Shown here piece after piece: positions 4,079-41,168 of a stretch of DNA of 64,000 nucleotides. The stretch spans positions 4,480,001 to 4,544,000 of the forward strand of contig NC_092576.1 of NCBI RefSeq assembly GCF_037975245.1. Reading direction: 5' to 3'. The notes under the pieces are model-generated. The model had not been told where the DNA came from, made no database searches, and saw only the letters and a program-made list of their open reading frames with translations. The position numbers and the translations under genes are program-made. This stretch comes from Apostichopus japonicus (lineage: Eukaryota; Echinodermata; Holothuroidea; Aspidochirotida; Stichopodidae). How positions within the stretch are numbered: the stretch's first letter is position 1; every line of letters begins with the position of its first letter.

Positions 4079-6650
4079 CGACCTTTTATGTAAATACCAA
4101 AATAGATCACTTTCCATGTACCGCTCGCCATATATATGGAGCTCAATTAAGTAATACAAATCAGTAAATCTTATAAATGAGAAATGTATTTATCAAGCCT
4201 AATCAGTTCGACGAAACATTCATCGAGTTACTGAAGTTTCATTGTGAATTATCTTTATTTCTTCTTTGTTTTGTTTCTTACCAATATTCTCTAGCCTTTT
4301 TAATTGTGCGACTTGGGATTCTATGATTCGAAAGTTAATAATTAACAATAGGAGAGTAACGTTATGTATCTAACAGAACCAAATGTATGATAAAAAAAAG
4401 CCCAGGGACCACATGTTCCGAACTCTTTCTTCTGTCTCATGGATGTGTAATCAACTGTGTCCATTTACTCTCTAACTTCTGTTTCAGTCTGAGCGTGTCA
4501 ATATGTTATCCACTTATATTTGCCTTTTATTCTATAACAATGAATCTTATTTTTGGTTTATGTCATGCCTTATAATAGCATCACTTACATTTCTCTTGAC
4601 ACAGTTATCAAATGCACAATTTGATAAATGAAAACGAGAAATGGTATTATCTGAGGAATATGCACCCATGCGTCTATGTGTTTGTCAACTTCTTTATCCA
4701 TACTTCAGAATTAAATATACACTGCTCCCATTTTGGTCAAAAACACATTCTTCTTCGTGTTCTATTATTATTTTTGTAATTTATTTCTCTCTTTATTAAA
4801 AACTTCATGTATTACGGTGTAAAGGTTTCAGATATGAATGAGTCCAAATAAATTGATATATATATACATACTAAAATTAAAACAAAATACGAATATTGTT
4901 ACATGTCATCTACTGTCATCAATTCACTCTACAACTGCCTCTTGTGTATATTACTATCATCATGAATATAAACGTTTCCGCAATATTTTAATAATAATAC
5001 ATTACAGTCAAACTAACGACTTTGACCATGAATCTTTCAAAAAAACATTTTAAAGTTAGAGACAGAATTGTTTTGTCATGGATTTGAATAATTGAGAACA
5101 ATACTAACAAGTTAATAATTGCACGCACTGAAATGATATTCATTGGAACTGAAAAGAACCCGTTTTAATTCACCTCTATACGTACATACCATGTTATGTT
5201 CTTTGTTTCATAGTAAACGCCTAATAAGACGTATCAAGGGCCAACGTGACCCACAAAACATAACTCAATTGATAGTTAGCGAACATTTTACAAACTGTTT
5301 TCATATATTTTGGATAAAGAACACAATCTCTTTGTTAGTCATCATTGCTCCTTCGACCTCAGCCTATTGTAATTCCTATTGTAATAAAATATCTCTTACA
5401 CAAATACATAAGCGTTAACTTACCTTTATACATGTGGGTTATGAAGCAGTACTTTTATGTTTGCAAGACATTTCTGTAACCACCTTATGTAGTTAACATA
5501 AATATTAAGGTCCCTCTTAACTCCTTCTGCACTCTTGCAATATTCGTATATACACTACACGATGTCGTTACATAGTTATACTTGTTTTCAAAAAAATACC
5601 ACAAATTTGGGCACCTTGAAAACAATTTGAATATATTAATTTTCAAGTTGCCTCATCTAAGGGAGACACCTTTCTTCATTTTCAACAAATAGCTGATTTT
5701 GAATAAAATAAAACCAGCCGCGAAACTTTTCCACAAGTTGGGCTCAACTCCGACCAGCTACTTGCTTGATGTTTTATAATGAAGTATGTTCTTTCACTTT
5801 AATTTAATCCGTCATTATTGGGAATTGACAAACATCATGAAATCGCAGAACTATAAAATGTTGCTGAATTACTAATATGCAAATGAAATGAAAGAATGCT
5901 TCAGTTGAAAAATGCAACATTTTTTTTTCTTTCGGAAATTAATGAATATTTTTAGCAACAGTGTATTATGACTCACGACGTTATTTACGTAATTTCGTGT
6001 ACTGATTTAAAAATCAAGTCATATGATATTTGATTAAGACATTTGCAAGACATTTCTGTAACCACATTATCTAGTTTACTTTATTTAAAGGTCCCTCGTA
6101 ACTGCTGCTCCCTGGCAATATTCGTATATAGGCCGATACTACACGGTATCGTTACATGATTATACTTGTGATCAAACAATACCAAACGTTGTCCGTCTTA
6201 AAATCAATTTGAATATATTAATGTCAATTTGCTTCATCTAGGGAGGCACCTTCCTTCACTTTCAACAAATAGTTGTTTTTGAATGACATCAAATTACTTC
6301 AGCTGAACATTTTCCAACAGTGGAGCTAAACTCCGACCAACCACTTGCTTGATGTTTTATAATGGAGTATGTTCTTTTAAGTTTATTTTAGTCGGTCGGT
6401 ATTGGGAATTGACAAAAACGTATGAAACCTAAGAACTGCAAACTGTTGCTGGATTACTAATATGCCCATGTAATGAAAGAATACTTGAAGGAAATTCTTG
6501 GAAGACATTAAACGCAATTTAGCTACACCAACTTTACTAACCAAAGTAAAAATTACTAACTAATTATTTGATAAAACATTCGTTCTTTTACTAATAAGAC
6601 TAACATATCAGACATTGTAATAGTATATTTATTTTAAATTATAAACACAC
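4079..6650. other. Gene-free AT-rich interval
   Basis: I see no convincing exon on either strand between the stop of the left-edge NACHT gene and the minus-strand Ig exon. If the Ig exon at 6981-6651 belongs to a longer minus-strand gene, its later exons should lie here, but I could not identify any. The right half holds a duplicated block, listed separately. Confidence 0.5.
5457..6480. repeat. Tandem duplication of a block of about 430 bp, offset about 580 bp
   Basis: The sequence starting TTTGCAAGACATTTCTGTAA near 5459 recurs near 6042. It is followed in both copies by AGGTCCCTC, CAATATTCGTATATA, a TTCAACAAATAG motif, CTTGATGTTTTATAATG and GGGAATTGACAAA in the same order. The copies are diverged, with small indels. 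No coding potential was seen. Confidence 0.7.
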
Positions 6651-6981
6651 CTTTAATTTTCAATTCATATTCCGTCCAGTTAATCTCTTGGCATGCGCAG
6701 GCATATCTTCCTTCGAAAGAAAAGTTAAGTAACCTCAAAGTCAAATCAAAGTTGTCGGACAACAAAATTCCATTCTCGAGGACATCTGGTACAAAAGAAA
6801 ACTTATTCACAAAAATAACTTTATCGTTAAATTTCCAAATATGCTTTCCCACTGATTCGTTACAACAGTTGTTTAGATGAACAGTATCCCATAAACTAGA
6901 ATCAACTTTAAATGTTTTGTTTTCTGCAAAGCTAAGTTTCACAATGTAAGCAGACAGTAAAGACAAGATTATTTGATTCAT
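6651..6981 (-). CDS. Signal peptide plus single V-like Ig domain exon
   Basis: On the minus strand, ATG at 6981 opens a 110-codon exon. The N-terminus (MNQIILSLLSAYIVKLSFA) looks like a secretion signal. The rest is one V-like Ig domain: a CC pair, HIWKF with the core Trp, then LTLRLLNFSFEGRYACAC with the G-x-Y-x-C motif. The exon can end at a GTGTGT donor in phase 1 (AAAG/GT), as Ig exons usually do. Reading on gives a stop only four codons later. It may therefore be exon 1 of a longer receptor or a complete secreted Ig protein of 115 aa. It is a paralogue of 9808-9475. I found no downstream exons. Confidence 0.55.
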
Positions 6982-7496
6982 TTTGTTCCCTATTTCCGTA
7001 CTGATAGAAATCGAATTGCTTGAGAGAGATAAAATGTACAGAGTTAATACCTAAGTGTAATCTAACAGTAAGCTTTAACTGTTTAGCAATGAATCGTACG
7101 ATTAGCCACGATAAGTATTTTTAAGTGTAAGAGAGTTTAGTTCACTATCACGTAGGTTCACATAATAAGGCTTTATGCGATGCGTGACAGAAAGTATGAA
7201 ACACGCTCCATCAAAACATTTCCTTTATAGCAATTAGATACTGAAAGTAGTGCGGAGTAGGCTTGTTAACAATACTTCGTTAACTAAAAATATATCTGTT
7301 GTTGAATTGGAAGACAAATGAAAATGAAATACAAACGGATGGGTGGTGTGTTTACCCATTTATTTTCGTTTTTACATAGACTTTGGGACAGACTTGTAGT
7401 TAAAATAAGCAGCATGAGGAAAAGCACTGTTAGAATGATAGTTGGATATGAGTATCAGTTAAAGGAACTATATATAGATGCGATTTCGAGTTCATA

Positions 7497-8060: not shown

Positions 8061-9474
8061 AAAGGCTGATTACAGAGATATGGGACCTTGAAGTAAGTTC
8101 AACATTTATTCCCACTTATGATCTGTCCATTCACACACTATCTCAACAGAGCTATGAACGAGTGTATACAAGCTGTGGCATTATTAGCAAATAAATCCTA
8201 GCAACTGTAAGGTCGATTCAAGATACTGCTAAGTTGAGGTAGGGTTCTCATCCAGGAGAAATTTAAAAGGTCTTCCAAATTGTTCATATCCCAGAATGAG
8301 CTCAGACTGTCAATTGGGATAGCCCCTTCTATAGTCATGACCAGGAAATTCCAGTTCATGTCTTTTACTCCGAAGGAATATGTCGCATTCCATTATGTTA
8401 CAATGCCTTTTAACACATGAGCAATTATTACACACTAACCAATAGCAAACAGAACAATAACATCAATGCGTTAGTGTTAATATTTCTCAGAGAAGTCTTT
8501 ACTTGAAAAAACATGACATTTGTTCAATGTTATTAAACTTGCTTAAAAAGGAGTTATTTTTCTCATTTTGACAGTATTGTACAAACACCAAGTCCCAAAA
8601 AGGAATTGTTTCAAAATGCGAACCGCAGCTCAAAATGATCAAACTTTGTAAACAACAAAAAGTTGTTACCTCCTGAAAGATTACATTAAAAATCACTGGA
8701 CTGTGAGAAGCAGTGTTTCATCTGTCTGTATGTATTTAGTAAGCATTAACTTAAATATGGTAACTATTGTACTGCTTGATCAAATAGGGAGATGCCGTGT
8801 TTTATGATATCTGCTGTGTTGTCTGCATTTCCAGTCACTCATGTTTTACAAGATGGCATCATGCCATAACACGATGTAATTAAACAGAGGGAATAATCTA
8901 TTGAAGTCAAAGTAATCGGTTCAACAACCAATTGAAGTCATTTTATTCATATCGTAGTTAGAAAGCTCCCCTTTCATATGAATGAAAACAAAACATAACG
9001 AAAGTGAATTGTACTGAACTGAACTGCACTGAACAAAGGGGATTGATATATTTTTCTTGGAATTTCAGCAACAATACATTTCTGAAATGGAGTTATAGAA
9101 CAGTCGCCCCAAAACGTTGCTTTTGTGCTCATCACAAATTATAATACTGTTACGCGATTATCAGTCTCCATAGCAACACGGTCAAGTTTTGGGTGCTGTA
9201 TTAGTATTGTGATTGACCTAGACAAAACACTCAGTTTCATTAATGTCTTAGTGTTACATTCCCTGAGGAATAAAACCAGTTACAATCCATAATAATACAG
9301 TTCTTACATGTATTTGTTAACTGTTAACTACCCCGAGAATAAACCTAATAACAATTCATAACAATTCAGTTGTTAACTGTTAACTCTCCCAAAGATTAAA
9401 CGTAATACTATAGTTACACAACAATTGACATTCAAGCGACTTTAATTTAAGTCTAAGTTATAAGAAGTACAAAC
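8061..9474. other. No gene recognised
   Basis: If the Ig exon at 9808-9475 starts a longer minus-strand gene, its later exons should be here. A short open stretch on the minus strand at about 8390-8215 and another at 8696-8499, preceded by CTTTCAG, have no recognisable domain. Short direct repeats containing GTTAACTGTTAACT lie at 9316 and 9372. Confidence 0.4.
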
Positions 9475-9808
9475 CTTTGACTAAAAGGAAATGCCTGTCC
9501 TTGATAGTTGCATCACATGAACATTCATACATCCCAGCGTGCTTTATCAAGACATGATTGAAGAATAATGAAAAGTTACTGTAGACGTGTAGGCTTCCTA
9601 CAAAGCGTTCATTAATACGCGAGTCTTCCAGAAAGAGATCAACTCCTTCATAATTCCAGAAACTCTGTTCATGAGTTTCACAACAGCAACAATCAAACAT
9701 CACTGAATCGAATAATGCAACATGGTGAAAAGACACTCCTCCGATAGCAACGTGTAACATAGTCAATAATAATGTACTAATATGAAAAACAGCACCAGGT
9801 GATGACAT
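9475..9808 (-). CDS. Signal peptide plus single V-like Ig domain exon (paralogue)
   Basis: The ATG at 9808 (MSSPGAVFHISTLLLTMLHV) gives a better signal peptide than the in-frame ATG at 9913, so I chose it. The mature part is a V-like Ig domain with a run of four cysteines (CCCC), core Trp in FWNYEG, and HAGMYECSC with the canonical G-x-Y-x-C. It shares with 6981-6651 the spacing, a double Cys, and a C-x-C end to the domain. The exon ends in phase 1 at AAAG/GTTTGT; read-through stops after four codons. It is either the first exon of a minus-strand receptor gene or a small secreted Ig protein. The function is unknown; an immune role is inferred from the domain and its neighbours. Confidence 0.55.
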
Positions 9809-12800
9809 TTTAAAACTATTTTCACCTCTACAAGTTAAAAGAAAATTACAGTAGATGTCCGACATAAGCCACGATGAATTAATTGAACAAATTAATAACA
9901 TGCTATCTGGCAATGTTTATGGTCCTACTCGTTCATGTTAAGATTTTAAGGTACAATATATTGTACATTGTATTTCGTAGACATTTCACCCTCTCTGTTT
10001 GTTACATGAAGATGTAGATTGTGCTAGTAGAAAAACTGCTTTGTTATTCACTTTCGCTTTTCTACATTGCTGAATTTTTATGGTGAGAGAAAATAAATAG
10101 TTTTGGAAACTCAATACGTGTGAGGAGGAGACTCAATGTGGTCCTTATTATATAAAAGAGCAATTGTTCAACCCCTTCAACCTACTTTAAAGGGATATGT
10201 CAGACAATTTACACGGTTTATTGATCAAAAGAATAGTTCACAGTGTTATTTGAAAACCCATCTCAATTTGTTTTCCCTACCTTGGGATAAATGTGTTTGA
10301 GATGTAATCCATTTTGACAGGCTAAGCGTCACCTTGCTCCAGAAATGTGTATCACATTGATTGGCCGGTGATGTAACCATGTGACAGATGTTGTATAGAA
10401 GGCTTTACTTTTAGACTGATAATCTTGTAATTGGTGTCTCCTAGAATAATAGTACATTTAAAATGTTTGCTTTGATATTAATATTCTTTGTTGTTTGGAA
10501 TTCACAAAATAAAACTCTATTTTCCTAAAACATGTTCAGTTCCGGTGGCCTAACTTTTTGACCTGATAAACCGCTGGATGCTTTACACGAATTATCAGAA
10601 CATTTAATTAACAATTCACATATTTACAACACAATATCCTATGAGGTAGTTCTCTTGACCTATAAGGATGCAAAAAAATGTTCAGTAATTCTGCCAATCA
10701 ATCAGTCTGTCACACCAGACGATTCCTTTAAGTATTAAGAACAAGGAAATGTCAAGAGACAATACTAAGAGCTAAGTCTTTATTGGATAAGCAATTAACT
10801 ATTGAAACGAAACTTATCATACAGATATGATGTAAAGAAAAAAAAGTCATGTTTGGATGGCTCCTGTGATGTTCTGAAAGATATGTGTATAGTGAAAAGA
10901 TATTACGGTTATTATAAAACAAAAAACTGTTACCATGCTACTATACAACATTTCAGTGTTTTCATGAATGTATGCATGATGTTCATTGTGAGTATTTGTA
11001 CAAAATTACGAATAACTTCATAGGAACTTCATGTCTAGTAAGGTTTAAGGGCACTTTTAGAACATTCAAAGACTGATACATTTTTACAATTTTCTGAAAG
11101 ATACACATACTATTGGCCTATAGTGTTCACTGAAATACTCAATATATTTAACGTTGCCGTGTTTATGTCAACAACAACAATAGCACATGTTTATGTATCT
11201 TCACATATGTATTTACATTACATATATTTCGTATGCAGATTTCAGATATACTTCTGAATATTATTATCATGCTTATTTACCCCTTTGGCGTTCCATATTT
11301 TAAGCCTTTTCTGAATTGACCATGTGGGTGGTATTAAGGCCTTGAATAGTTTCATCTTATCGTTCATGAAGAAGACTAATCTACTGAAGATTCAAAGTTA
11401 AATTTTATTTTTATTGGTGATTTGGGAAAGGGTTCCACTGAACAGATTCATGCAAAAAAAGCAAGATGTTATACACACATGTAACATAGAAAGGATACTT
11501 AATACATACTACTGTACCATGCAGTATATTTAAGAATTTGTGAATCAGTCCTTTCATCTCAGTAGTACTTATGTCGTAGCACCGTATCTTGTTCAAAGGT
11601 CAACCTTACATATATAAATGCAAAAGCACCTTCACTCGATTGAAGAGTACCGTGTCCCTGAGGGAAGTTATAAGGTTGACTTTGGAAAAGTTTCCTTTCC
11701 GTATTTAAATGCTGCAAATGCCACTTTCAAAATTAGTTATAAGTAGGTATTGTATTTGTTGTTGGGAAAATGTAATCATAATATAATATTTCACTTCCTT
11801 ATGGGGCAAAGATACACTTAACAAATCACTTAAATCACATGATATAATATTTCAGTTTCATATGGGCAGAGATTAACTTAACAACTCACTATAAACATCC
11901 AAGTTATATAGATAATAAGTTTCGTTTTACCGAATTTGAGATACACATTTACATCGCTTAGTTTATTTCGATGTTTACAATAATTCTTAAGCACATTATA
12001 CAGAAGCTTAAGTATAACAATTTCGTGAATTCAGTTGTTGTCACTTTAGCTGAATGCTTGAAAAACAACGAAAACATAATGTATAGGCTAACCGCTTCCG
12101 TATATCCCCAGTGTGTGTTTTACAGTAAATAGGCTCATTATGCTATTACTCTGCACTTTACAACGATTTGCAATGGTGTTTTATATTCTTCACATACATC
12201 ACACATAAGCTAATCGGGACTGTACAAAATGCACATAGACACCAAAAGCAGACGAGACGGGGTTCCTTCGCAGTCTCTTTGCCGTTTTTGCACGTAACAA
12301 GCGCGTGACATGATAGGAGCTTAAGAGGGACCGCCGTAAGCAATCCATAAGACTCTAACAGTAGATCTTCGAATATTAGTCAGGGTTCATGCATTTCTGG
12401 TACATCAAAAATAAATATTTACGACATTACCACCCAAACATAAGCAATTATTCAAAAATGTTACTGTAAAGGCCCGTTATAATGCCGTTCCTTTGCGTAC
12501 GAAACTCTATCTGTTTGAACTGACAAAGGGATAAGTAATATGTTAGTAGTACCTTGCAGCACATCACATGACGCCCCTATGATTGTTATGTTTAACCACT
12601 GTGGAACGAGACCTCCAGACAATATATAAGTCGATGTTTTCATGTGTGCATTACACTGAATGAAATATTACTCTACTGCGCAATCATGAACTTTGGCATG
12701 TAATAATGACGGTGGTGTACGTGTGTTTATCTATATACGGTTCATGGCGTGTTGTTCGACGTGCATGATGGGAATGGTCGATTTCCTACAGAGCCTATGT

Positions 12801-16421: not shown

Positions 16422-19400
16422 ATGGAGCTTATCCGGAGCCTACTTTATTCGGCAGTAGCCCTGGTGACTGCTACTTATTTTACACAAGGTAAGTGATATT
16501 GCTCACTCTGCAAAATATCCTACAGGGCCTAACCATCACTGATGGGTATGCATAATGATGATAACGATGATGACGATGGTGGCCACGACGACGACAATGG
16601 TGATGACGATGACAAAGACGATAATGGAGCGTGTTATGGCTCACTTCTTCTATCCGATCTATCGTATTACTCTCCCAAGCCCTCACTCTTACTCTGCAAT
16701 GGCTATGCGAAACATTTCTAAATAAACCAAGGATCTAACGACAGAACCATCCTACTCCTCTTTTTTTTCTAAACCTGAATCATTTTTACTATAGATGGTA
16801 ATGTTATTGGTTAAAAGTGTTATTCGTCTCACTGCTAGTTGGAGTACATACACCAACATTTATAAGCATTATCCATCATCACTAGATACTGCATTTTTTA
16901 AATATTAAGTTATATATTAAGTCTAGCGTCTGATATCTGATGCAGTGACTATTATCTGAGGGAAGGGGGGGGGGGGTGATTCACCCCATTGTCACTTTAG
17001 TGTGAATATTGATGCAGTGCGCTTGTAGGTTTCGAAGATAGAATCAGCCGTGATACAAACAGCTTTCTATTTATAGTCTATGGCTACAATGGCTCGTTAT
17101 ATAGGATACATGGGATTTCCTTTCTTAAATACTGGAGGCTGTCGTTGGGTACATTGCCACTTTGGTTCCAAATGTTATATTTCTGAGCGTATATCGTTGC
17201 ATAGGTTTTACTGGGTGGTGAAGGCTGTGATGTACCACGTATAATTGTAAACTCAATTGTTTCTGTACACCATTGTGTAGGTTTATTGGATGGGGAGGGT
17301 TGTGGGACGCCACAATACCTCGAGCTTGGAGAGACTGGGATAATCAACTGCGCCTTCCCGAATGATTTCGTTGCTATATTTTGGGTGAACTCTTCTTATA
17401 ATGGATTTGAAGAAGCGTTGGTGAGACTGAATCAAGATGGCACTACCGAAGACGGATACGCTCCGGGAGAGTTCAATATCCACGACAACGGTTCCTTGAT
17501 AATAAATAACGTCAGATTGGAACATGAACATTTGTTTACGGCAGTCTTGTTTCGAGATTCGAGTGGAAATTATGATAATTTTATTGTTCGAGTTATAACA
17601 ACAGGTAAGGAATTTAAATCACATTCATTTCCCCCAAGTTTAGAGATATCGTCCTTCGCATTACATGTATATATGACGTTGAGCAGTCTTCGTACACATC
17701 TAAGCCAAGACATTATATTTACCAAATATAAAGTATAACTAAACACGTGTAAGTTGACATTATTACTGCTAATGATCGAATGTTAATTTAACAAAGCAAC
17801 TGACTGTAACTTTTGTTTCCTCATTTATTTCATGCAAGTGTTTGATGAAGTAATTTTTCACAAATCATACTTCTCTACTTAATTCCTTCCTCAGTTCAAC
17901 CATCACAGACGCGTCCTTGCATCAACAATTGTGATTCTGAGGCGGAAGTACGTTTCACGCAATTGAATGAAGATGCAATGATTGTTTGCTCCGTGGTTAA
18001 CTCCAGACCAGCAGTGGAGTTAAAACTGTCATTGAGAACCGACAGCGGAGACAGGAATATTTCTTTTGTAACCAACGTGACTAGTTACGATGTCACATAT
18101 TCTACATTTGTCTCCACTGTTGATGTATTTCGACACTCGTCCATGCTTGCTTTACTAGTCTGCTCGGAAGTAAGCACACCAAAGAAGTTAGAGAATAGTG
18201 AATATTCGTTGTTGGTTCAAAACATTGATTTCAATCTGCAATCGGAATCACACGAAGAAATGAATATTAAAAAAGGCAATGATGTTGTACTTCATTGCTC
18301 AGGTGAGAACCAAAAACAAGACAAATACATAGTTTGGAATCACAAAGCCAATCTCGAAGAACAGGGTACCGCTATTGTGTATGCTGTGTATGGTGACGAC
18401 TCTTTCATCAGTGAACCTTCAAATGGATATGAGTTGGGTGCTAATGGTCTATTGAATATTCATCATGTCGACATCGATCACGAGGGTATTTACAGCTGTT
18501 TATCTGGAAATGGTGTTGACGGCGACTTTCGTAACTACAACGTGAGGGTGTACGGTGAATAATTGACATATTTCTACTGTTTCGATAACAACAACTTTAA
18601 AAATCTACAACTGAAAACCGAATGACGTCAGTAGCAATCAAACTATATTTGAAGTTAAAGCACGTCATAATGAAAAGAAACGAAAATATGTTTGCAATTT
18701 AATAGATTGTGATATTATATAGTTTGTAACAAGCGAAAACATGTGCTCTGGCAAGCAATGGCAAGCATTGGTAAATGCAGCATATTTTTGTTGTTGTAAT
18801 GCAGCATATTATTAATTTTTAATTGATGGTAGTTTGCCGCCTTAGTAGGGATACACAGTTTCTGCATAGACTGGTAAAGCAATGCTAAGAACAAACTTAG
18901 CCACATTGGGTCATATACACCGCGGCTCACCATTCATGGGAAGATTTTATAAGGTTATCCTCAACACCATACAAGATTGTGGAAATTTGGATATGGTTTG
19001 TTGTTGTTGTATAATTTTGTTTATTGACTCGTTTCATTAAATAAAAATAATTCATCGTGACGTTTCAATATTTCTTTTTTCTTTTCTAACAAATTCAACT
19101 AATGAATTACAGCGACTGCGTCTCCAGTTGTCAGTGGTTGCAGTCCAATGCAGTACTGTGTGCTGAGTACAAGTAGAGGAACTGGTACTTTGACATGCAA
19201 GATAGAAGGAGTTCGTCCGAAAGTTCAACTTGAATTTCGTGAAGTTAGAGAGAGTCAGTCTAGAAAAGTCAATTTCAAACCGCCAGAGACAACAATCACT
19301 GTCAAGGGAAACTTGTTCGACGTATCTGTGACGTCAGAATACGAAGTGTTAGAATCAGTCTCGGACTCACAAATCACCATAGAATGTGCAGTTGTTGGCG

Positions 19401-22400
19401 CCAGTATTGACTTAGATTACTTCGGCTTACCAGCATTATTCGATCTCCTTATTACCTCACGTAAGACTATCGTCAATTTGCGTATGAAACTATTGTATAT
19501 TCTTCATTTTGTCATTTAAAAATATTGATGAAATCATCAATCACCACAGACATCACCATCATTTATAATCATAATCATTACCACCGTAACACTTCTCCAA
19601 TCTCCGTGCAAACACCGTTTTTATTGTCAACGTCACCTTCATCTTGTCTAAAATTTATGCGTAATGTTTTAACTAATTTGATTCTGAAATCTACATGTCC
19701 AATTATACTTTATTTTCTTATAATATTTGCTCACACAGCAAATGATGTCCCAGTAGTAACACCCGAAGGCGGAGGATTACAGTTTTTGTGGTTACTTATC
19801 CTTCTTCCTAGCTTGGTTTTACTGGTGGGATTATTATATTTTTGTAAAGGTAAGTAAAGAAAGTACTGTTAAAAAGACAATGAAAATGTTGTTGCATGGT
19901 ACATTGTTATGAGAAATCGCGAAAAAAAAAGGATATGAATTTATTGTAATTTAAATTATGGCGTAGGATACTGTCAACACATTACTAAGTATGCATGAAC
20001 ACACGAAAATATGTTATTGATTGGTTGATTGACTGATTTATCGATTGATTTATTCATGAACACATTCTTATATCTAACACCAGGAAGTAATGATAATTAA
20101 AGCAGTTAGTGCAAGTTACTAACTAATCTTAAATGTCGTTTTTCTTCTTAGATAGCCGTTACAATATTTACGTTGTTGTCTGACAACCGTTTCGCCCGGA
20201 AATTAGCTTTATGAACTGGTACAAGCATTGATGATACTATTAAAGTAGCATTTGCTTCTTTTCAATTTCAGTATTTGTTTGCAATGAGAACGAAGTTTTT
20301 TTAGAGATTAATATAATTATTTTACTTTATAATTACTTGCAGAGAAAATCAAGACCAGGATCCCACCAATAGGTGGACGTGATCCAGAGGTAGTAACTAT
20401 AATATTCACTTCGTTTATATGATTATTTTCTTGCCGATCAAGTGTTCTTTAAACAGTGTCTCCTTAATTAGTTATTTGAGTTCATAAATGATTCGATTTC
20501 GATTGATTTATGTCAAATAATACTTTTTAATTTATAAAAATGAATAACAAGAAAATCAAAGTTAAAAAACATTTTGTGTACATTTTCAACTTTTTTCAAC
20601 ATTTATTATTTTTAACAAAATATCCTGCTCTAAGATGTCCTTTTATTCAAAAAGGTAAATATGAATTAACTATAAAACTATGTTTATTTTTTGGTATTTC
20701 CAGGGATTCCCGATGTTACCAAATGTTTCACCAGGTACGAACATCTTTGTTAAAGTCTCGTATTAACCCTACTGTCACAAAAAATATGCAAAATATGATT
20801 TAAAACGTTTCATAACGCAGTCAATGTGAAAACGAAATACCTATCAGTCATCAAAGTAACATGTTAGCATAACATAGGTTGTGGTCGATTGGTATTACCA
20901 TGTTGATATCCCAATTATACCACGCATGGTGTATGTTTAGAGAATAATATGAATTTTCAGTGCTTTACGTCAGAGAAATATTCAGGGAAGAATCAAGCGA
21001 ATCTTGAAACATCTGTACGTTTTACAGAAAATGGGCCAGTCGAAAAATGTACTAAAAGTTGTTGGAAAAATCCCCGATAATAATGCAATCATGTCGGGTA
21101 TGTTTAACAATCACGATACTCTTCTAAAAACGAACAACAATGGTATATACCCAATCATCGGCATTCGAAGTGACACAAAAGATGTTAACTTTCTTTTGTT
21201 ATATGTAATGTTACCATGCTTTTCACCCCTTTTCATTGTTCATCTCAGATGTGATTCAGAAGTTCATTCAACAACTTAAAACCAAATATGAAGGTTTTTA
21301 CAACGCCGTGTACCCGGTGCCCTATATCAGAGACAGAATGTATTGCGTCAACACAATATTTGTTGAAAGTGGCATACAAGTAATGAAGTCACATGACAGG
21401 TGGGCATATTTGACGTCATATCAAGACATCTTGAAGAATGCTGTTAATCGATCTGCAAGGATAATTCTTGAAGGAGAACCTGGATTTGGCAAATCTACTC
21501 TTTCCCTACAATTAGTGTATGATTGGTGTAAAGGAATATCTTCTTCGCCTCTAGCAAATGTACAGATTGTGATTTTCCTTCGATTGCGACAAGTAGGGGG
21601 TGTGACGTCAATCGCACAAGCTGTCAAACAATTCATTTTGCCAAGAGATTCATCTATCAAAGAAAACGATATTCAAACTATACTTCAGAATTGTTCTTCA
21701 ATAGTCATTATATTAGATGGATTTGATGAGTATCCTGATAAGGATAATGACGTCGTCATCTCTGAATTTAAGAATATCATTAAAGGCGATATATTTCAAG
21801 ATGTCTGTCTTCTTGTGACCACGAGAGCAAAATGCATGCCAAAAGAATACGCTCCTCAATCGAAGCGTATGCGATTGGTTGGGTTTAATAGCGATGCCCA
21901 ACGTTCATATATCAGAAAGGCAGTGGTCGTTGATAACCCCTCGAAAGGAAAAGCCATTTTACGCCGTTTAAATGAAAACACGATTTTGAGTGATTTGTGT
22001 CAGATTCCACTATTTTTTGTGTTGTTTGCGCATATCACTTTTGAGGATGAACAATTTGAAAATTTTACTTCAGTTTCTACTTGTTTTGGTTACGTAATCG
22101 GATGTTTTCATGAACATTTAAGACTTAAGTCAGATGACAAAAATGTTAAGCCTTACCAGAAAGATCACAAAAGTCTTGACAAAGTCGCTTTCGATGCCCT
22201 TCATGGGGAACTCCAACAATTATCGTGGAGTAAGGATAATTTGTTGGAGCATCTTGGAAAGGAATTTTATTCTTACTACGTGAAACTTGGTATGTTAATT
22301 GAAGAAGAGGTGCAAAATAGAGACCCTCTCAATTCAACAAGCTTAAGTCACTATCAAACAGAGGTTAGATTTTGTCATAAAGTCTTTTGTGAGTGGTTTG

Positions 22401-25315
22401 CAGCACATAACTTTGCTGACATTGTATCTGAAGATGACACGGTTCTGAGCAAAAAGGGAATCAACCCATTCGATTCGCAATACGTATATCGTTTTGCTTG
22501 TGGGTTAAAACCTGAAGCTGCTGAAAAAATCATCTCTTACGTCAGAGATCTCGAGGATGGTGACAAGTTTTCAATTCTCTGTTTTCTGGAGCAAACAGGA
22601 AAGACAGACACGGTTCTGGAGACAATCAAAACTATTTGTCAGTCTGAAGTGATCTTCGATGGTAGTGATAGCAAGTTACTACAGCGATCAACGGTTCAGC
22701 TATTAGAGATGGCTTCCACTAATGGAGTAAGTTGTATATCACTGCAACAGGCAATACAATATAATGCATATTTATCCGGAAGTTTAGATGTTCTTACGTA
22801 AAAGAGAGGCATCTTGAGAATGTGTTTGCCTTTTCTCTCTCTTTTTTTCTTTCTTAATTTATTGGAATTGCATTATGCATGAAATATCGTCATGATCACT
22901 TGGATATAATCCCGTTTTACATCCCATTCACCTCACCTGACCATATCTATGATCTGCTATAAGTCTCTGCATATATTTGTGGATATTTCTCGCATCATAT
23001 TAAGCTTGTTCCTTAACAGATCGAGATATCCAGGGTGGAACTCTATGATTGTGTGAGGTCGGCTGACTTGGACCGTGGCCATCTGGTACTAAGCTCTGGC
23101 ATTCACTTCCATAAACTCAGCTCCATCAACCAATTGGTGATATATGACGAGGGAAAGCACGTGATATACGAGAAAGCGCGGGGAATTATCAACTTCGGAA
23201 TGCTTTGCCACGATCTTCGGACGTTAGCGTAAGTGATGTAGCCACACCTCACCGCTGATCATGACGTCATCTGAACGTATTGTTTGTACTCGTTGTAAAT
23301 CATCTATGTAAACGTTGCACATACTGTTGATTATGAAGGCCTATTAATAGTGCTAATTACTCGATTTGTTCAATTGGTTATGTTTGTTACAAATTTATGT
23401 GTTTTATTTTCATGATAACAATAAGCTCTTGCATTATATCGTCTTACACAAACAAAATTCATACTTAGGACTCTCAATTTCCCTCCAACCCCTCGTAAAT
23501 CCCTGGTATTTAAACTTTGTAAGATTTACAAATGAGAATGCCATGTTTCTTCTACAGGTTCTATCGTTGCATTATGCCTCAGACTCTTGGAAGACTTCAA
23601 CATAATTTCAGCGGTACAGTATCAACAGCATTATATATGGCCTATCCATCCGTAATAAATTTAAAACTAAGTGACAACGTTCAGACCAAAGTAACCATTA
23701 GACTTTTCAAAGAAATATTATTTTTTTTTCGTTTTCTTTTGTCTGTTTTTGTTATCGCGATTACAAATACACTTGCCAAGGTTTCTTCCTTAAAACAAGA
23801 CGCCTTCTTTATCCAAACAACATCAGTAGACTCCTTGTTCAGGGAAGTAGGAGCCAAGGTAAATTAAAAATCGCCCCTCACTCCTACCCTCAATGAATTG
23901 TTAAAGAAAGAAACATCAAACAAATTCCTTAAGTCTTTGTACATAAAATGACAAACATGAGACGGGGAAACAAGGGTTAAGACCCACTTCATACCCACAG
24001 ACATTTCAATTTTAATTCATGATCTCGACTATCGTTGGTCTATTTCAATGGATTGTTTGTAATTCATATTTTACATTATTTTGTATCTATTTAACAGTTG
24101 TGTGGTCGCCTTCTACCGATACCCGTTACAACCTTACGCAATCAGGAAAATGGGAGGTCAGTACAGCTTGTGGTTTCTAATCATTTATTTTGATCTACTA
24201 ACATATAGTACCCACTATCTTAAATCGACATTATATGTTATGCGTTTAATTACTTCTTTTACTCTTCTAGACAACAGAAGGGAAGAAATTATCAGATGAG
24301 CAGTACCAACTCGAAGTACGTATCATAACTATTATTTTTTTCTTCGTAACATTTAATGTAACCAATACATATTTATATGTGTATTCCATATAAAACACAA
24401 AAAGGTAGTAACCTAGAGAAGTACGGAAGTCAAATACCCGTTTTAAACACTACACCCTTAAAGATATTTACATTTGCACTGCTATGGAAACGGGATGCGC
24501 AGACAATAGAAAGAGTTCATCATAAGTCCGGGTGAACCTACGTGATTTTAATCTGATGAGAATGGGGTCGGGGAGAGGGAGGGGCTGCAGGCCCGAAGGA
24601 TGTCGTGAATTATGGGATCGATAATTCTCTCCAATTAAGGCGAGCACTTCGATACCTGTTGTATTTAATATGTATCGAAAATTAATTGCTGTCTTTTTTT
24701 TGACGGAGGTTAAACATGTTTAATGCAAAGATAAATACACAACCCCTCCCTTCTTCTCCCATCTCCAGCGTCCAGGCTTTCATAGTAATTACCGTCTTGT
24801 TCTTTCTTTCAGGTGCGTAAAATTACACAACAGTCTCAGTAAGTATTATAATCAATCATTGACTATAAGTACTTCATCAATTCATGTTACAAATCCGCAG
24901 GTGCATGGGTCGTCTTTTTCGAGAATTGATAGATATAGAGTGATTTTGATATTAGCTCTAGGCATTCAGGCCTGACGAAAGAGACCAGGTGTGAATTAGG
25001 AGGACCCGCAAAAATATGGGATGAAGAATAACTTGTAACCTTTTTCTCGTTCGCATATATACAATATAGAAAAGTTAATACCACAAAGAAGGCTCACGAA
25101 GACACAACTTTATGCCCACTTGCATAGGCTAGCTTGAAACTTCTTTTGGTTCAAACTATCACCCCGTCAACCCACCCACTACGACTAGTTACCAATACTA
25201 TGGTGTGAACTTGAACGAACATGTTTTATTTATAATCACTTTGCTTTAATGTCCTATTAGATCTAGAGATACGAATGGCCATAAACCAGGAACTGAAGCT
25301 GATACTGCATGCTGA
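16422..25315 (+). CDS. Transmembrane Ig-NACHT receptor (V-C-V-C Ig, TM, NACHT, LRR-like tail)
   Basis: Proposed exons are 16422-16488, 17281-17604, 17895-18554, 19113-19460, 19739-19849, then 20343-20389 or 20704-20734, 20961-21097, 21249-22726, 23020-23228, 23558-23613, 24098-24156, 24271-24315, 24813-24838 and 25261-25315. The 20704 route joins in frame to 1,201 aa. Residues 1-23 are a signal peptide. Then come a V-like Ig (Cys, FWV Trp), a C-like Ig, a second V-like Ig (DHEGIYSC) and a second C-like Ig. A helix (LLILLPSLVLLVGLLYF) follows at about 475-500. The NACHT domain has Walker A GEPGFGKST (21473-21499, near residue 635) and Walker B IVIILDGFDEYP (near 714). The C-terminus is a short LRR-like region and a micro-exon tail. 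The Ig exons are all phase 1-1. I infer a surface immune receptor with an NTPase signalling domain. The alternative is two adjacent genes wrongly joined, but the phases and the absence of another start or stop argue against that. Confidence 0.75.
16540..16625. repeat. GAT/GAC-rich microsatellite
   Basis: An imperfect GATGATGACGATGG-type trinucleotide tract lies in the first intron of the Ig-NACHT gene. The minus-strand frame across it (His/Arg-rich) is a by-product of the repeat. Confidence 0.7.
19739..19849 (+). other. Transmembrane-helix exon of the Ig-NACHT gene
   Basis: This 111-nt phase 1-1 exon encodes a short linker (NDVPVVTPEGGG) and a hydrophobic run of about 20 residues ending in YFCK. 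That is a single-pass helix with a basic cytoplasmic stop-transfer residue. It links the ectodomain exons to the cytoplasmic NACHT part, so splicing of this exon decides between membrane-bound and other forms. Confidence 0.75.
20343..20734 (+). other. Pair of candidate mutually exclusive juxtamembrane exons
   Basis: Exon 20343-20389 (47 nt, EKIKTRIPPIGG...) and exon 20704-20734 (31 nt) both have good AG and GT borders. Using only the 31-nt exon gives an open frame into 20961-21097. Using only the 47-nt exon gives an open frame if the next exon starts at AG sites 20974 or 20986. Including both, with the 20961 acceptor, leads to a TGA soon after and would remove the NACHT domain. Which isoforms exist cannot be decided from the sequence. 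Confidence 0.45.
21249..22726 (+). other. NACHT-domain exon
   Basis: This is one long exon of 1,478 nt. It encodes a short N-terminal helical stretch (DVIQKFIQQLKTKYEG), the P-loop GEPGFGKST, LDGFDEY as Walker B, VTTRAKC as the sensor-1-like segment, and a winged-helix/superhelical region ending in LLEMASTNG. The fused acidic motif D-G-F-D-E is typical of animal NACHT NTPases. It ends at a GTAAGT donor in phase 0, exactly where the left-edge paralogue ends its homologous exon. Confidence 0.85.
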
Positions 25316-28225: not shown

Positions 28226-29984
28226 GAAAGTGTGGATATGATTGGACTCCTTCCAGAGCCCATAAATGGAAATAGGTACATCATAACCCTATGTGACTAT
28301 TTTTTCAAAATGGCCAGAGGCTGCTGTAAGAGACAAAACAGCAAAAACTGTTGCAAACTTTCTGTTTGAAACAATGGCCAGGTAATATCCGTTTACTTTT
28401 GTTTTTCTTTACATAGCGTATTTTTTAAATTAGTACATAGACCTGCATTTGCACTGTTCAACCTGTGACCCAGAAAGCGGCCAAATGGTTACAGGTATTT
28501 CTTAAACTCATCTTTAGAGTTGTTTGTAAGTTTATGCCAATTAAATGTAAGTGGGATACCAGTCAGTGCGTCCAAGACCAGAAGTTAGGCAGTGCTCTAC
28601 TTGCACTCTTTTTACACTGCCCAAGGTCCAGTATTATTAATTCAGTGCTGAAATAATCTCCTGATTAAACCATGCAGCCAATCTGAACAGTACTCGTAAT
28701 CAGTACCTTAACAACTTATTTAGAGTTTTCCATTTATTTAGATTTGGGTGCATGAGAATTGTCATTTCAGACCAAGGACGAGAATTGTTAAACAAGTCCC
28801 TGTTTGACATGACAGGGGTGGGCCACAGAGTATCCTACAGCTACCACCCACAGACCAATGGGCTGGATGAAAGATTCAACCAAACTCTGCAAAGATCACT
28901 CATCAAAGTTGTCAACAAAAACCAAGATCAATGGCATGAAATGTTATCTTCTTTTCTCATGGGGTACCGTAGAGCAACACAGGGTTCAACAGGTCTTTCT
29001 GCTTTTGTTGTGATGCTTGAAAGGTAATCTCTCAATTTGATTGGACCCCTTCAAGAGACCATATATGGAAAAAGGTACATCATGACCCTAAGTGACTATT
29101 TTCAAAATGGCCAGAGGATGCTGCTGTAAGAGACAAAACAGCAAAAACTGTTGCAAACTTTCTGTTTGAAACCATGGCCAGGTAATAATTCAAACCTACC
29201 ATTGCTGGATAGAGATTTACATTTGTTAAGGCCATATACGGAGAAAAAGCAATCAGGGACAAGAGAGTTTGGATAAATCCTGCATAGCTACACCAGTCCT
29301 CTATAGGATAAAATCTCATTTGACACATCCCAGGTCCTGGGAAAGACTGCTAAATAGAGGACCATCAACAACTCTAGTCACAATACCTAACAAACAGATT
29401 AACTTTGTATATGGTACACTCTTCAGCAAGTACAAAAGATGAACATTCATGAAACTATAAAAGCATGCCAATGAATTTTTTGGTTGCATGGCCTTAATAG
29501 TGGAAATAAAATACATATACAAAAATTAATATTCAGTCAACAAAGTGTTTTGAATACTTGATTAATTTATCTTCATATATCCAGAAAGCCATTGTTACTA
29601 GGTGGGCATGGAAGACTCAATTGTCCAACCAGAATCTCCTACCGCTGCGATGCACAGCGGGAGAGGGTTTTTCAATTCGTGTCACAGTCGCGGGTCATAA
29701 TCAAAGGTGTTGTGAAGGAAAATATTGGCAAAGCCCAAGAACGGCCAAAAAAGAAAGAAAAAATCGATAAAAGGCACCAATCAAAAAAGGTAATTACATA
29801 ATACTATGCTGTGCATTGAAAACTGCACTGTAATGAAATGAATGGCATTATATGCATTGTATTATGATGTTTACGTATATATGCTGGATTTTGTTTTATT
29901 CAGAGCTTCAAAGTTGGTTCCATTGTTCTTGTACGGAATGCTAGAAAGGATGCCCGAAGAGGAGGGAAGCTCGATTTGTGTTAA
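28226..29984 (+). pseudogene. Decayed, intron-split integrase gene (Gypsy-integrase/KRBA2-like)
   Basis: The pieces in order are: 28226-28381 (VDMIG..., start of the integrase core) with AG and GT borders; 28742-29024 (ISDQGRE, then SYHPQTNG and ERFNQTL, giving the remaining catalytic D and E); 29033-29180, a near copy of the first piece; about 29586-29789 (Lys-rich, IGKAQERPKK); and 29904-29984 (SFKVGSIVLVRNARKD, the usual post-core small domain) ending in an early TAA. The first piece and its copy are frameshifted in opposite directions in the same T run (six Ts and four Ts; a multiple-of-three frame needs five). The family acts as a retroelement DNA-integration enzyme; several host genes derive from it. 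The in-phase introns suggest a former host gene rather than a fresh retroelement. It is now broken. Confidence 0.7.
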
Positions 29985-32496: not shown

Positions 32497-35370
32497 TCAG
32501 GTCCATGGTAAAAAATTGCAATGGATAATCAAACCACTCACAAAGTAAATAGAAAAGTACATCAAAATGAAGACCGACCAAGGACCATTTCGAAACCAAC
32601 TGCAGATTTTTCTCATAATGCCAATCACACTCTGAGGGCCTTGGGTATTGAAAAAGTTTCCATCTGGACCTTTGGTTACAAGATGGGCCGCAAATACAAG
32701 AAGAACTGGGCACGATGAGAACAGGAAACGTGTGAGCACCTTCAGAGGAGGAAGCAAAGTTGAAAAGATTTTAATCTTAAATGAAGAGGTAACAGAGCAG
32801 AGAAACATGAGAATCACTTTACTTTGCCCCCAAAAAATAATTCATGGTACAGAGACTGCTAGAGTTTTCAAGACTATTAAGTAATTCAATTAATCAAACA
32901 TACATATAAGTCAGTAGTGACCTGTACACTGCTAGTGTCTCCTTTCATACTGCTTGCTAAAGTGATTCGAGCACACTTGTGAAAATATCCATCATCAGTA
33001 TATTATTCCCTGTAACTATTGCAAAGTCACAGTTTAACATTCAAACTATTTCTTCAATTCTGTACAAACTTACCTCAATATGCATGAAGAAGATGCCAAA
33101 CAACAGCAAGAAAGACAGATGAGCAAGATGTAAAAAGTTCTCTTCGTTAAAAAATCCCTGACTCTTGGCATATTTGTCCCAAGTTTTCCGGGGAGGTAAT
33201 AAACCCACCCATCGTACATACTCCCAGTTCTGTTTGCAGTACGTTGTTATCGCTCTTACTGACAGGACGATTATTGGAAGTGCTAGGAAAAAATTTGGAA
33301 TCTTTCGAAGTTGAAAGTAATTGAAGAAACCAACTTCCCAAACTTCAGCTTGTATGTTAGAGTAAGGAAGTGGGAGTGACTTTTGACACCAGGCAGGCGG
33401 TGTGGAAGACGGAATGTAATTAACTTGGCTGTTCACTGGAAGAATGTACTCAAAAATTGTTGCTGGAAATATAAACCTCTGAGAATGACAGACTTGGCTA
33501 TAGGAGTACATTTGAAAGAGCAGAAATGGACCAAAGTTTAGGGCTGCCAGGCCAGTCAGGAAGATTGCAATCTCTAGTGAAAGCAAGGCAATGTATAGAC
33601 AAACATTGGTCTTTCCTGCGCTCACTGCTATAAGAGTATCCCGAGTGAGCTGTTGGATCCAATGATAGATTAAGAAACCAAACGAGACGATCCCATTGGA
33701 CCTAGTAGCCGAAGATAATCCGAACAGAACCGCACCAGTTATCAACCGTTTGTCTTGATACGCTAGCATGCCGAGAAAGGTTAGGAAGCTAAACAGGCTC
33801 TCTGAGTAAGTTGCAGACATGAAAACGCTGGCTGGGTTGAAGCAGAACAAAACAGCAGCGGCTGTAGCCATGTTGGCATCCTTTAAGAGACGTTCTGCAA
33901 GCTTCTGAAGGAGACTTGCAGATAAAACAAAAAGGAACGTGTTTGTGACAAATGACGAGATCATTAAACATGACCGGAATGATATCACCGTACTAAAGGG
34001 GAAGTGAATCACCAAGGCAACAGTCCTAACGATTGCTGGAAACAATGGAAAGAAAACAAACATCTGGGGTTGGGTGTAGCCATCTTCTGATATTGTGAGG
34101 AAGTAAGAGCCATCCCACTTACTGAAGCCTTCAAAGAGATGATGAATCACTCTGTCTCCTTCGGTCGGATTCTTAAGAGGCTTCAGTCGAAAAGCTGCAG
34201 CATTATGGTCTGTGATCAGCCCATTGAAGATAACCTGTAATGTAAAGGGAAACAATGTATCTCAATGGTGTACAACATTACTATCCAAGCAGGGAATATC
34301 TTATCCAGTATCGTAGTATAATATGTTTGCAAAATGGTAGTTAACATTGCATCTATAAAACTGACATTATAAGTGCAAAAGATGTATAGTATTAGTATTG
34401 CCATACAAAATGCTCTGCAAAGTGGTAGTTAACATCACATCTATACAACTAACATTAAACACTGCAAATGATAGCACTTTTTGTACAGTATAATATGTAC
34501 AGAAGAGGAATGGTATTACTATTGGTAAATTTGCTATTTATACGAGACAAAACTCAGAGCCACCAAAACTGATATTTAACAAAGTTTGAACACAAATTCT
34601 TTTCCTGGAGAAGACCTGTAACTCTGTCTTCCATTTTTATTTTGACTTTCAACATGTTACTAACAACAAAGATGTTGTAGGCCTACATAGCATCAAGGCT
34701 TTTCAACACTTTGTATAATGGGAGCTAATCTTGAATAGGAATTTATCAGGAGGGACATTCTATTTCATCCTCAATTAATCATTGTTCAACATACTCCTGA
34801 TCTCGTGTTCCTCTCCATGGCAGGGGTTGAAACATTTCCCTAATATTGGATGATCCCATTTAGACCTACTTAAAAATTAGGGTATTATAAAGCAACAAAG
34901 TCGTTTGTCCCTTGATAGAACACCTTACCACTATAATTATGTAGAAATACCTTATAGCCTAAGGCCTAACATTAATTTTAATTCATTAAAAATAAGGGGT
35001 GTGAATAGTACTATAGTAGTTCTCCAAATCATTTGAGGATGACAAAGAACTTTTGGCCTAGCTCTAAACAATAAATGGAATAATCAAAGAGGTGAAATAT
35101 AAATTTCGATCCGATATTTCTCTAGTTGATAAGGAGGGCACCGTATTAGCACTAGACTAGACTAGTTTGTTTTATCATCTTATTTTCGATCATGCAGTAT
35201 TCTTTCGTGTAACTGGTGCCAGTACATTCTGAAATGTATGCCTAGGTCTATGGATGTTGAAAATAAAAACATTTTACTTTCTAGAATATAATTATAATCA
35301 ACAGGCTTACCTGTATAATCCACGCAAAGGCCCTCGAAATAATTGCTACTTTCACCACGACCGAAACCAT
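32497..35370 (-). CDS. PIGV: GPI mannosyltransferase 2 (PIG-V)
   Basis: It transfers the second mannose (alpha-1,6) to the growing GPI anchor on the ER membrane, using dolichol-phosphate mannose (GT76 family). Coding exons on the minus strand are 35370-35311 (60 nt), 34234-33074 (1,161 nt) and 32739-32497 (243 nt with TGA). All junctions are phase 0 with GT-AG borders, giving 487 aa, close to the human length of about 493. The N-terminus reads ISRAFAWIIQ/VIFNGLITDH, the family start. FSKWDGSYFL holds the conserved Asp of the first lumenal loop. Many hydrophobic helices follow. Residues YSESLFSFLTF and SATRSNGIV are family blocks, and the protein ends HCNFLPWT, as PIG-V does. The large ORF in exon 2 has its own upstream ATG (34255), but this is intronic; exon 1 supplies the true start. 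Confidence 0.93.
34310..34490. repeat. Diverged tandem duplication of about 100 bp in a PIGV intron
   Basis: TTTGCAAAATGGTAGTTAAC... and TCTGCAAAGTGGTAGTTAAC... start two units. Both continue with CATCTATA and AACTRACATTA. They lie in the first PIGV intron (34235-35310). Confidence 0.6.
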
Positions 35371-38854: not shown

Positions 38855-39049
38855 AAGGTGACCCTATCCCTGGTCCCCTCATCCCCCATCTATAACTGTC
38901 ACATCTTTCTTGTCCTTAGAAGGTGACCCTATCCCTGGCCCCCTCAACCCCCATCTATAACTGTCACATCTTTCTTGTCCTTGGAAGGTGACCCTATCCC
39001 TGGTCCCCTCAACCCCCATCTATAACTGTCACATCTTTCTTGTCCTTTA
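38855..39049. repeat. 65-bp minisatellite, three units, overlapping the FICD stop codon
   Basis: AAGGTGACCCTATCCCTGG starts at 38855, 38920 and 38985, an exact 65-bp period with very few differences between units. The third unit runs into the last coding exon of FICD, which ends at 39009. Confidence 0.9.
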
Positions 39050-41168
39050 CCTCTGCAATAGAATGGTCCCTGTCTTCATCCAGATAGATGTAAGCGTGCA
39101 GCATTGCATCCAAATTCTGACTGATGAAACGTATAAAAGGCCTGATGTCACCCATATTACCCTTCTTGATGACTTCATAGTACGTGTGCCTCTCAGATAA
39201 CTTGAGAATGACCGGTGGGTAACCTGACCTCATGAGGATCAAGTTCATCAGGAGACGAGCTGTCCTCCCGTTACCATCTGCGAACGGATGGATATAGACA
39301 AACTTGTAATGTGCTAGAGCAGCAAACTCTACTGGATGGAGGAGAAGAGCCTCTTCACTGTTCAACCACTCCACAAACTCATCCATGAGTTCCTCCACTT
39401 CGGTGGACGGGGGAGGTACATGTCCCCCAATGAAGACCTGAGTGGTCCTGACATGGCCTGCGTCGATCGGGTCCACGTAACCCATGACCCTTTGATGGAT
39501 GGCGAGGATGTCCCTGACCGTAATTGCACCGATCCTCTGCATGAGGGTGTTATTGATAAACTGTAATGCTGCGTCCAATCCCAGAACTTCATTGTGCTCC
39601 AGGATGCTCTTACCCCCGATGGCTAACCCCGTCTCCATGATGCTTCTCATCTGCTCAAGGGTGAGGGTGTTGCCTTCGATCGCAGTTGTGTGATAGATCT
39701 GAAGATAATAAAACTCCTGTCTGGCACGCTCAAAGACACGGCTGCTCTCGGATATCTCAAAGAATTGGGCAAGCTTCCTGTCGATCTTGTCAAACATTTC
39801 TTTGTCGATCTCAGCGACTTTGTTTGAAGTTCTTCTGAGGTTGCTCAGAGCTCTAGGATGCGAGTCATTCAATAAGACTGCGCAGGTGTAAAGATGATCT
39901 GCTTTCACTATGTCGTCCTCCTCTAGAAATTCACCATACTCGTTTAAGACATCCGAGTGACTGGGATCCAACGCTAAGGCATGTTGAAATAACTTCAATG
40001 CTTTCTCCTTTTTACCTCTCTCCTTTGCATCTATGGCCTGATGAAGAGCAGCAAGGGTTTCACCTTTTAGCACTGTGAAAGGGATATAGAAAACATCTCA
40101 GGCAACATTATTAATAAACAGTTTACTTGAAGGGTTAATGAAAGGATACAAAGTTACCACAAACCTGTTTACTATTGTAGTTCATTAATGCCCTTGAAGA
40201 GAAAAGCAAGAAAGGATTTTTCAATACATGGGATCTTTAATGTTGTTATGCCTCTACACTGATGTAGTTTTCCTCACAAACAACATCAAGATACAACAAA
40301 CCACGCCCACTTCAACAAGGTCCCGTCATGATACTTCCTAACAACCATCCAACCGTCCACACTTGCATACACAGAACAACTGAGGTCAATTATTAGTATC
40401 AATAAGACAAATGTTTGAAGACTGTTGTTGTTTCTTAATTACTTATTATAACTTAATTACTTTAATAACTAATGGAAGAAAGTAAGAAACGCTTCAATTA
40501 GATTTACAACACCAGCAAGTAAAAGAGTAACACTTTTACTTTGATACCAACAAAATCTTTAGTGATTTCATTACAACATTTCTTGGTTACATTTATAAAT
40601 TGTCTTGTCTAGCATTTGTGAATCATCAGTTAAAATATTGTGATGGTTATGGACTTTGTTCCAGAAGACCAGTTTGGCAAACAATTTAGGAGTAAAAACT
40701 GAAATCAATTAAATGCTGCCAATAAATTGTAAAATAACAAAACAACACTAACAGCAATTGTCCTTGGAGGATCTTGGAAAGAAAATTTCCTAAATGCATG
40801 ATAAAGTTACAAAACTTTTTCTACACTGTGTGATCAGAATTTATTCCTTAAACTTAATAGCTCCAACCTTGCATAGTAATATACAAAACAGGCTACAAAC
40901 CTTTTGGTTCGGAAGTCAACTTTGGACCAGTAAGAGCCCATTCCATCAATGGATTACTAACTGGAATCATTGCACTAGACCCAATACCTGGCACCAGGAG
41001 GGCCCGCTCTACCACATGCTTCCTCAGTCGGGACCATCCTCCAGGAAACGAGAGAAGATAATTAGTGTTGAATGCTGAGAGAAGAACAGCTGTCATGATT
41101 CCACCAAAGAGGAAACAGACCAAGGAAGACCTGTTGACAGTTATATGAATCTCTGATGTCCTACACAT
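39009..41168 (-). CDS. FICD: FIC-domain protein adenylyltransferase (FICD/HYPE)
   Basis: FICD AMPylates and de-AMPylates the ER chaperone BiP, so matching chaperone activity to load. Exon 1 is 41168-40901 and exon 2 is 40072-39009. They join in phase 1 (AAAG/TG gives Lys-Val) to 443 aa; the human protein has 458. Residues about 14-33 (SLVCFLFGGIMTAVLLSAF) are a type II membrane anchor. Two TPR-like helical pairs follow at about 95-170. TTAIEG carries the inhibitory Glu (E222) of the (S/T)xxxE(G/N) helix, and HPFADGNGRT is the catalytic Fic motif with His351. The flap region GGHVPPP is also present. All key residues are intact, so I expect an active enzyme. The final residues (DKKDVTVIDGG) are encoded by a minisatellite unit and are probably lineage-specific. 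Confidence 0.95.

Follow-up and report, generated by a model that had tools for sequence, protein, structure and literature searches.

The gene on the + strand of the stretch of Apostichopus japonicus DNA analysed here (64,000 nucleotides, C16:4480001-4544000, hereafter the window) very probably is AjNLRC4, a single gene with a type I architecture in which an Ig ectodomain is followed by a transmembrane (TM) helix and a NACHT domain. The initial annotation, which was right about the echinoderm origin of the DNA, had found no described family with this Ig-TM-NACHT order. That statement does not hold, since AjNLRC4 (PMC8699970) and AjNLR-new (PMC13133943) have both been published, as their accessible text shows, and the order is therefore not new but already in print for AjNLRC4 itself. 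Judged from the genomic sequence, AjNLRC4 belongs to a large Ig-TM-NACHT family with at least 43 loci.

Gene model, domains and membrane topology

Nine exons between 16422 and 23228, all on the + strand, have AG/GT borders and compatible phases and splice into a stop-free frame of 1,091 codons. This bears out the single frame joining a leader, four Ig-like domains, one membrane helix and a NACHT domain that had been proposed at the outset. Exon 1 (16422-16488, residues 1-22) carries the start codon and a hydrophobic leader; it is open, runs from phase 0 to phase 1 and ends at a GTAAGT donor. The ectodomain is encoded by exon 2 (17281-17604, residues 23-130) with Ig-like unit 1 of the V-set type, exon 3 (17895-18554, residues 131-350) with the C2-like unit 2 and the V-set unit 3, and exon 4 (19113-19460, residues 351-466) with Ig-like unit 4, and the transmembrane helix by exon 5 (19739-19849, residues 467-503). 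Exons 6 (20343-20389) and 7 (20704-20734) were placed on the basis of phase and splice borders as a cytosolic linker. A candidate exon at 20961-21014 contained an in-frame stop and was dropped; exon 7 joins position 21249 in phase without it. Exon 8 (21249-22726, residues 530-1022) encodes the NACHT NTPase and then a helical region, and exon 9 (23020-23228) a C-terminal region with 55% identity to the tandem neighbour described below.

Beyond 23228 the 3' end of the gene model is tentative. Five candidate exons on the same strand have fitting phases (23558-23613, 24098-24156, 24271-24315, 24813-24838 and 25261-25315, the last with the stop codon), and their addition gives a predicted protein of 1,171 residues in total. 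The first resembles the tandem neighbour at the protein level (E 4.7e-6), the second at the DNA level (E 2.1e-7) and the third weakly at the DNA level (E 0.19), and in the part of the comparison output that was covered no such likeness was seen for 24813-24838 and 25261-25315. A tail without 24813-24838 was also tried, and its frame was broken. The frame of about 1,201 codons to 25315 claimed initially thus stood in its nine core exons and in a stop that can be reached at 25315, but its length became 1,171 residues and its tail is tentative. Exon 9 and the 165-residue C-terminal tail of the tentative model matched no Pfam family at E up to 10, and an LRR remnant considered for the tail was rejected on the same absence of a Pfam match.

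The domain models that the initial annotation had named, V-set Ig and NACHT, both matched. Pfam NACHT (PF05729) scored 66.5 bits against a cut-off of 26.7 (E 3.4e-18), and the Walker A (GEPGFGKST, residue 605) and Walker B (LDGFDEY, residue 685) motifs are both intact, as had been read from the letters. Pfam V-set (E 1.2e-11) covered two stretches, one at residues 250-349 in exon 3 and a second that we assign by inference to exon 2. Ig-like unit 4 in exon 4 was weakly of the C2-set_2 type, with 16.9 bits, under the cut-off of 21. For residues 1-503 Pfam matched six Ig families and, below threshold, one viral coat family, and a death-fold effector domain at the N-terminus was not among them. 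The AlphaFold2 model of exon 3, which spans units 2 and 3, had a mean pLDDT of 88.9, and the neighbours listed for it by Foldseek were Ig proteins, mostly with tandem Ig domains. The whole-query TM-scores were low (0.26-0.42 among the matches listed), as expected where the hinge between two domains differs; the match is therefore to Ig domains and not to any particular receptor. In an alignment of 28 exon 3 sequences, made up of the window sequence and 27 of 30 fetched Ig loci (L015, which is the window itself, L019 and L026 were excluded), the four cysteines expected to pair within units 2 and 3 were invariant.

Hydropathy analysis revealed one strong helix at residues 476-506, which peaks at 2.56, and a second, weaker stretch at residues 774-794, which peaks at 1.70. 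The leader stayed under the threshold (1.4 over 19 residues) and was judged by eye to be a signal peptide. Features of an Ig-superfamily type I receptor are thus present in the form of tandem Ig domains and one transmembrane helix, with unit 4 below the Pfam cut-off and the signal peptide assigned by eye. The sequence suggests that the protein is probably single-pass, with the NACHT domain in the cytosol. A two-pass protein, in which another helix at 776-795 would put the C-terminal part outside, is unlikely, although a SMART prediction in the accessible text of PMC8699970 gives this second helix and a hydrophobic stretch does exist in that region, at the peak of 1.70 noted above. This stretch sits within the NACHT exon, whose best solved relative is NLRC4 (E 2.6e-25), and residues 776-795 align inside NLRC4 chains of known structure. 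NLRC4 is a cytosolic protein, and a single crossing of the membrane is favoured for this reason. In the structure model of the NACHT part (mean pLDDT 76.6) the weaker hydrophobic stretch lies among the helices after the NTPase core, where the model places helices 244-249 and 253-262, and three of its residues (P253, L254 and H261) are invariant in 9 aligned NACHT sequences, those of the window and of L001-L008.

Probable identity with AjNLRC4

AjNLRC4 of A. japonicus was published in 2021 (PMC8699970). The accessible text of that paper describes residues 1-482 as outside, with an Ig-like domain at 31-132 and an Ig domain at 251-353, followed by a transmembrane helix at 483-503, a NACHT domain at 600-757 and a second transmembrane helix at 776-795; PMC11932488, likewise in its accessible part, supplies the accession, MN607598, and places an LRTD motif at 177-180. 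In the spliced frame of the window gene the hydrophobic helix covers residues 483-503, the published transmembrane helix, Walker A and Walker B both fall within the published NACHT limits, and LRTD occurs once, at residue 177 as in AjNLRC4. The published qPCR primers match exactly in exon 3 (22/22 and 20/20, at 18344 and 18513), and the published ectodomain primers match at 24/25 positions each, EX-F at 17304 in exon 2 and EX-R at 19117 in exon 4. For EX-F no second site was found genome-wide at up to 3 mismatches. These matches also point to A. japonicus as the species of the genome searched. Common to both are therefore the positions of the transmembrane helix, the NACHT domain and the LRTD motif, the Ig-like and Ig regions, and the ectodomain and qPCR primer sites. 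The published description differs in having two Ig-type domains and two transmembrane helices, whereas the window gene has four Ig-like units and one helix.

It is very unlikely that the window gene is a very close paralogue of AjNLRC4, or an allele that has diverged from it, and not AjNLRC4 itself. Such a reading could draw on the single mismatch in each ectodomain primer, on the two mismatches of the published siRNA at the spliced exon 4/5 junction (17/19), and on the match of another published primer pair elsewhere in the genome. The siRNA is a weak gene tag, since it also has an unspliced 18/19 match on C9. The single genomic site of EX-F and the exact qPCR primers argue against a paralogue, as does the closest exon 3 relative among the matches listed, which has 46% identity, and an allele would still be the same gene. 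We therefore retain AjNLRC4 as the identity of the window gene.

The primers that match elsewhere are those printed as AjNLRC4-IN F and R in the accessible text of PMC8699970. They have at least 8 mismatches everywhere in the window, and match 25/25 each at C14:1474164 and C14:1477150, the sole site for each at up to 2 mismatches. The segment C14:1474164-1477174 encodes a UBA domain (PF16577, E 7.8e-18), for which three PDB entries matched with E of 0.01 or lower, all of them sequestosome-1 (best 2.6e-13). The locus also encodes a ZZ finger (E 6.2e-12), and an exon that appeared PB1-like by eye matched no Pfam family. From these domains we read the C14 locus as the p62/SQSTM1 gene. The IN primers were not found in the main text of the other papers searched. 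Because the other tested features of AjNLRC4 fit, we attribute the mismatch to a fault in the table or the construct and do not count these primers among the features that define the gene. An intracellular fragment was used in PMC8699970, according to its accessible text, for an actin pull-down and a binding constant; either the printed table is wrong, or the fragment in these two experiments was p62. The reported contact between NACHT and actin is unsafe because the IN primers mismatch the window gene, and it should be rechecked before others build upon it.

Recurrence of the Ig-TM-NACHT order in the genome

Genome searches covered 671.6 Mb in 35 contigs. In the search with Ig exon 3 the best 150 of 181 candidates were scored, and 134 matched. 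In the two NACHT searches the best 106 of 487 and the best 87 of 611 candidates were scored, and the two lists were merged at 2.5 kb to give 162 NACHT places; all counts are lower bounds. At 43 of the 162 NACHT places a related Ig exon lay on the same strand no more than 12 kb upstream, while the three controls at the same distance (downstream on the same strand, then upstream and downstream on the opposite one) gave 0 each. At 20 kb there were 45 paired NACHT places versus 1, 0 and 0 in the controls. All three loci scanned had a transmembrane-like segment between their Ig and NACHT parts, with other hydrophobic stretches also listed. The recurrence in at least 43 loci places the Ig-NACHT order above chance, as do the reading frames of the neighbour, which are open despite saturated or nearly saturated synonymous sites.

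Two adjacent genes, an Ig-TM receptor covering 16422-19849 and an independent NACHT gene starting near 21249, are very unlikely. In favour of two genes, the gap of about 1.4 kb between the transmembrane and NACHT exons holds just two short exons of 47 and 31 bases, and Ig exons and NACHT places also occur apart: among the matches listed, a scored NACHT is missing from the 12 kb downstream of 91 of the 134 Ig exon matches, and a scored Ig exon from the 12 kb upstream of 119 of the 162 NACHT places. Against two genes, AjNLRC4 as described in the accessible text has both halves at the residue numbers predicted by splicing, and 43 places keep order and strand against none in the controls. This part of the window therefore very probably holds one gene and not two, as first annotated. 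The 119 NACHT places without a scored Ig exon also mean that not every NACHT gene here is of the Ig-NACHT kind. Six unpaired NACHT loci were compared with the window gene over the 8 kb upstream; one had an Ig unit 4 exon and four had no Ig. One of the six had exons that were death-fold-like by eye, and Pfam did not confirm the death-fold-like exon tested from an unpaired locus.

Genome-wide, the NACHT expansion amounts to at least 162 places, mostly on C16, C12, C7, C17 and C22, and an initial pass with the NACHT exon gave 611 candidates. Ig exons akin to exon 3 are clustered at C15:11.19-11.71 Mb and C16:5.17-5.99 Mb with no scored NACHT nearby; from their sequence these are possibly related Ig receptors without NACHT.

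The closest case of recurrence adjoins the window gene. Positions 3-982 on the + strand (matches at 3-335 and 776-982) hold the last exons of a tandem Ig-TM-NACHT neighbour that starts upstream of the window, the remainder lying at C16:4474.7-4480.0 kb. This tandem paralogue has the order D1, D2-D3, D4, TM, NACHT. Its NACHT exon is 68% identical to that of the window gene and its ectodomain units are 46-51% identical (exon 2 48%, exon 4 51%). The frames are open in both paralogues, and synonymous sites between them are saturated in units 1-3 and nearly so in unit 4 and NACHT. Open frames at such a distance suggest that selection has probably maintained both copies over a long period. The dN/dS ratios between window gene and neighbour, 0.24 for unit 4 and 0.09 for NACHT, indicate constraint and not positive selection; for ectodomain units 1-3 a dN/dS test for positive selection was unusable on account of the saturated synonymous sites.

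Other features of the window include two open frames on the - strand that are Ig-like by eye (6634-7050 and 9458-9916), with no Pfam match at E 0.001. A PIG-V mannosyltransferase (E 3.9e-72) is encoded in a single open frame at 33041-34261 on the - strand, and an FICD-like protein with a Fic domain (E 4.8e-25) and a TPR match below threshold at 39012-40097 on the same strand. A fragment of a retroelement integrase core, under the Pfam cut-off, lies at 28665-29027 on the + strand.

Known relatives and proposed mechanism

The window gene shares with mammalian NLRC4 and NLRP3 the NACHT domain and the helical region that follows it, and differs from them in being membrane-anchored with an Ig ectodomain. 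Among the features of the NLR (NACHT-LRR) family, NACHT is present, and by Pfam C-terminal LRRs and an N-terminal death-fold are absent, in a model whose tail is tentative. AjNLR-new of A. japonicus (PIK48001.1, 1,197 aa) has Ig, transmembrane and NACHT parts in one protein (PMC13133943) and, compared by the accessible description only, resembles the window gene in this content and in its similar length. Its authors put NACHT outside and Ig inside, opposite to the topology we favour for the window gene. NLRs with an immunoglobulin V-set domain are described for the apodid sea cucumber Chiridota heheva (PMC8913654), and by this description, in its accessible part, they combine V-set and NACHT in one predicted protein as the window gene does; that text does not mention a transmembrane helix for them. 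In the accessible parts of the respective papers, the A. japonicus 2017 genome paper reports an NLR expansion with NLRs gathered at LG04, a Holothuria glaberrima preprint mentions an NLR expansion, and TM-bearing NLRs are mentioned for the sponge repertoire. Ig-NACHT was not found in the accessible text of the first two, nor in that of the sponge or ctenophore repertoire papers. The size of the Ig-TM-NACHT family was likewise not found in the literature searched, most subscription papers and all supplements being outside reach.

A surface receptor wired directly to an NLR-type NTPase is unusual, and AjNLRC4 is a published example. According to the accessible text of PMC8699970, the protein is located at the surface and its Ig part binds microbes, challenge with Vibrio splendidus leads to dimerisation and internalisation, the dimer is said to form via the Ig domains, and knock-down reduces phagocytosis. 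An association with caspase-1 via the Ig part, and not via NACHT, is reported in the accessible part of PMC11932488; this contact is difficult to reconcile with an Ig part that faces outward. In the arrangement proposed here four Ig-like domains would lie outside, one helix would span the membrane, and the cytosolic part would be an NLRC4/NLRP-type NACHT NTPase. Ligand would cluster the Ig ectodomains, and the clustered ectodomains would draw the NACHT modules into ATP-driven oligomerisation; the ectodomain would in this way take the sensing job that LRRs have in classic NLRs. We give the NACHT oligomerisation step about an even chance. Intact Walker motifs and an NLRC4-like NACHT domain allow NACHT-NACHT assembly and are no proof of it, and NACHT oligomerisation was not found in the accessible AjNLRC4 literature searched.

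With a family of this size, paralogues have to be weighed when AjNLRC4 knock-downs and antibodies are read. A tentative reading, to which we give somewhat less than an even chance, is that the clustered family of at least 43 loci encodes surface receptors in which the Ig ectodomains change more rapidly than the NACHT domains, and which may form a diversified outward repertoire feeding STAND NTPases. If this is true, the Ig-TM-NACHT family would play at the membrane the part that expanded NLR families play in the cytosol.
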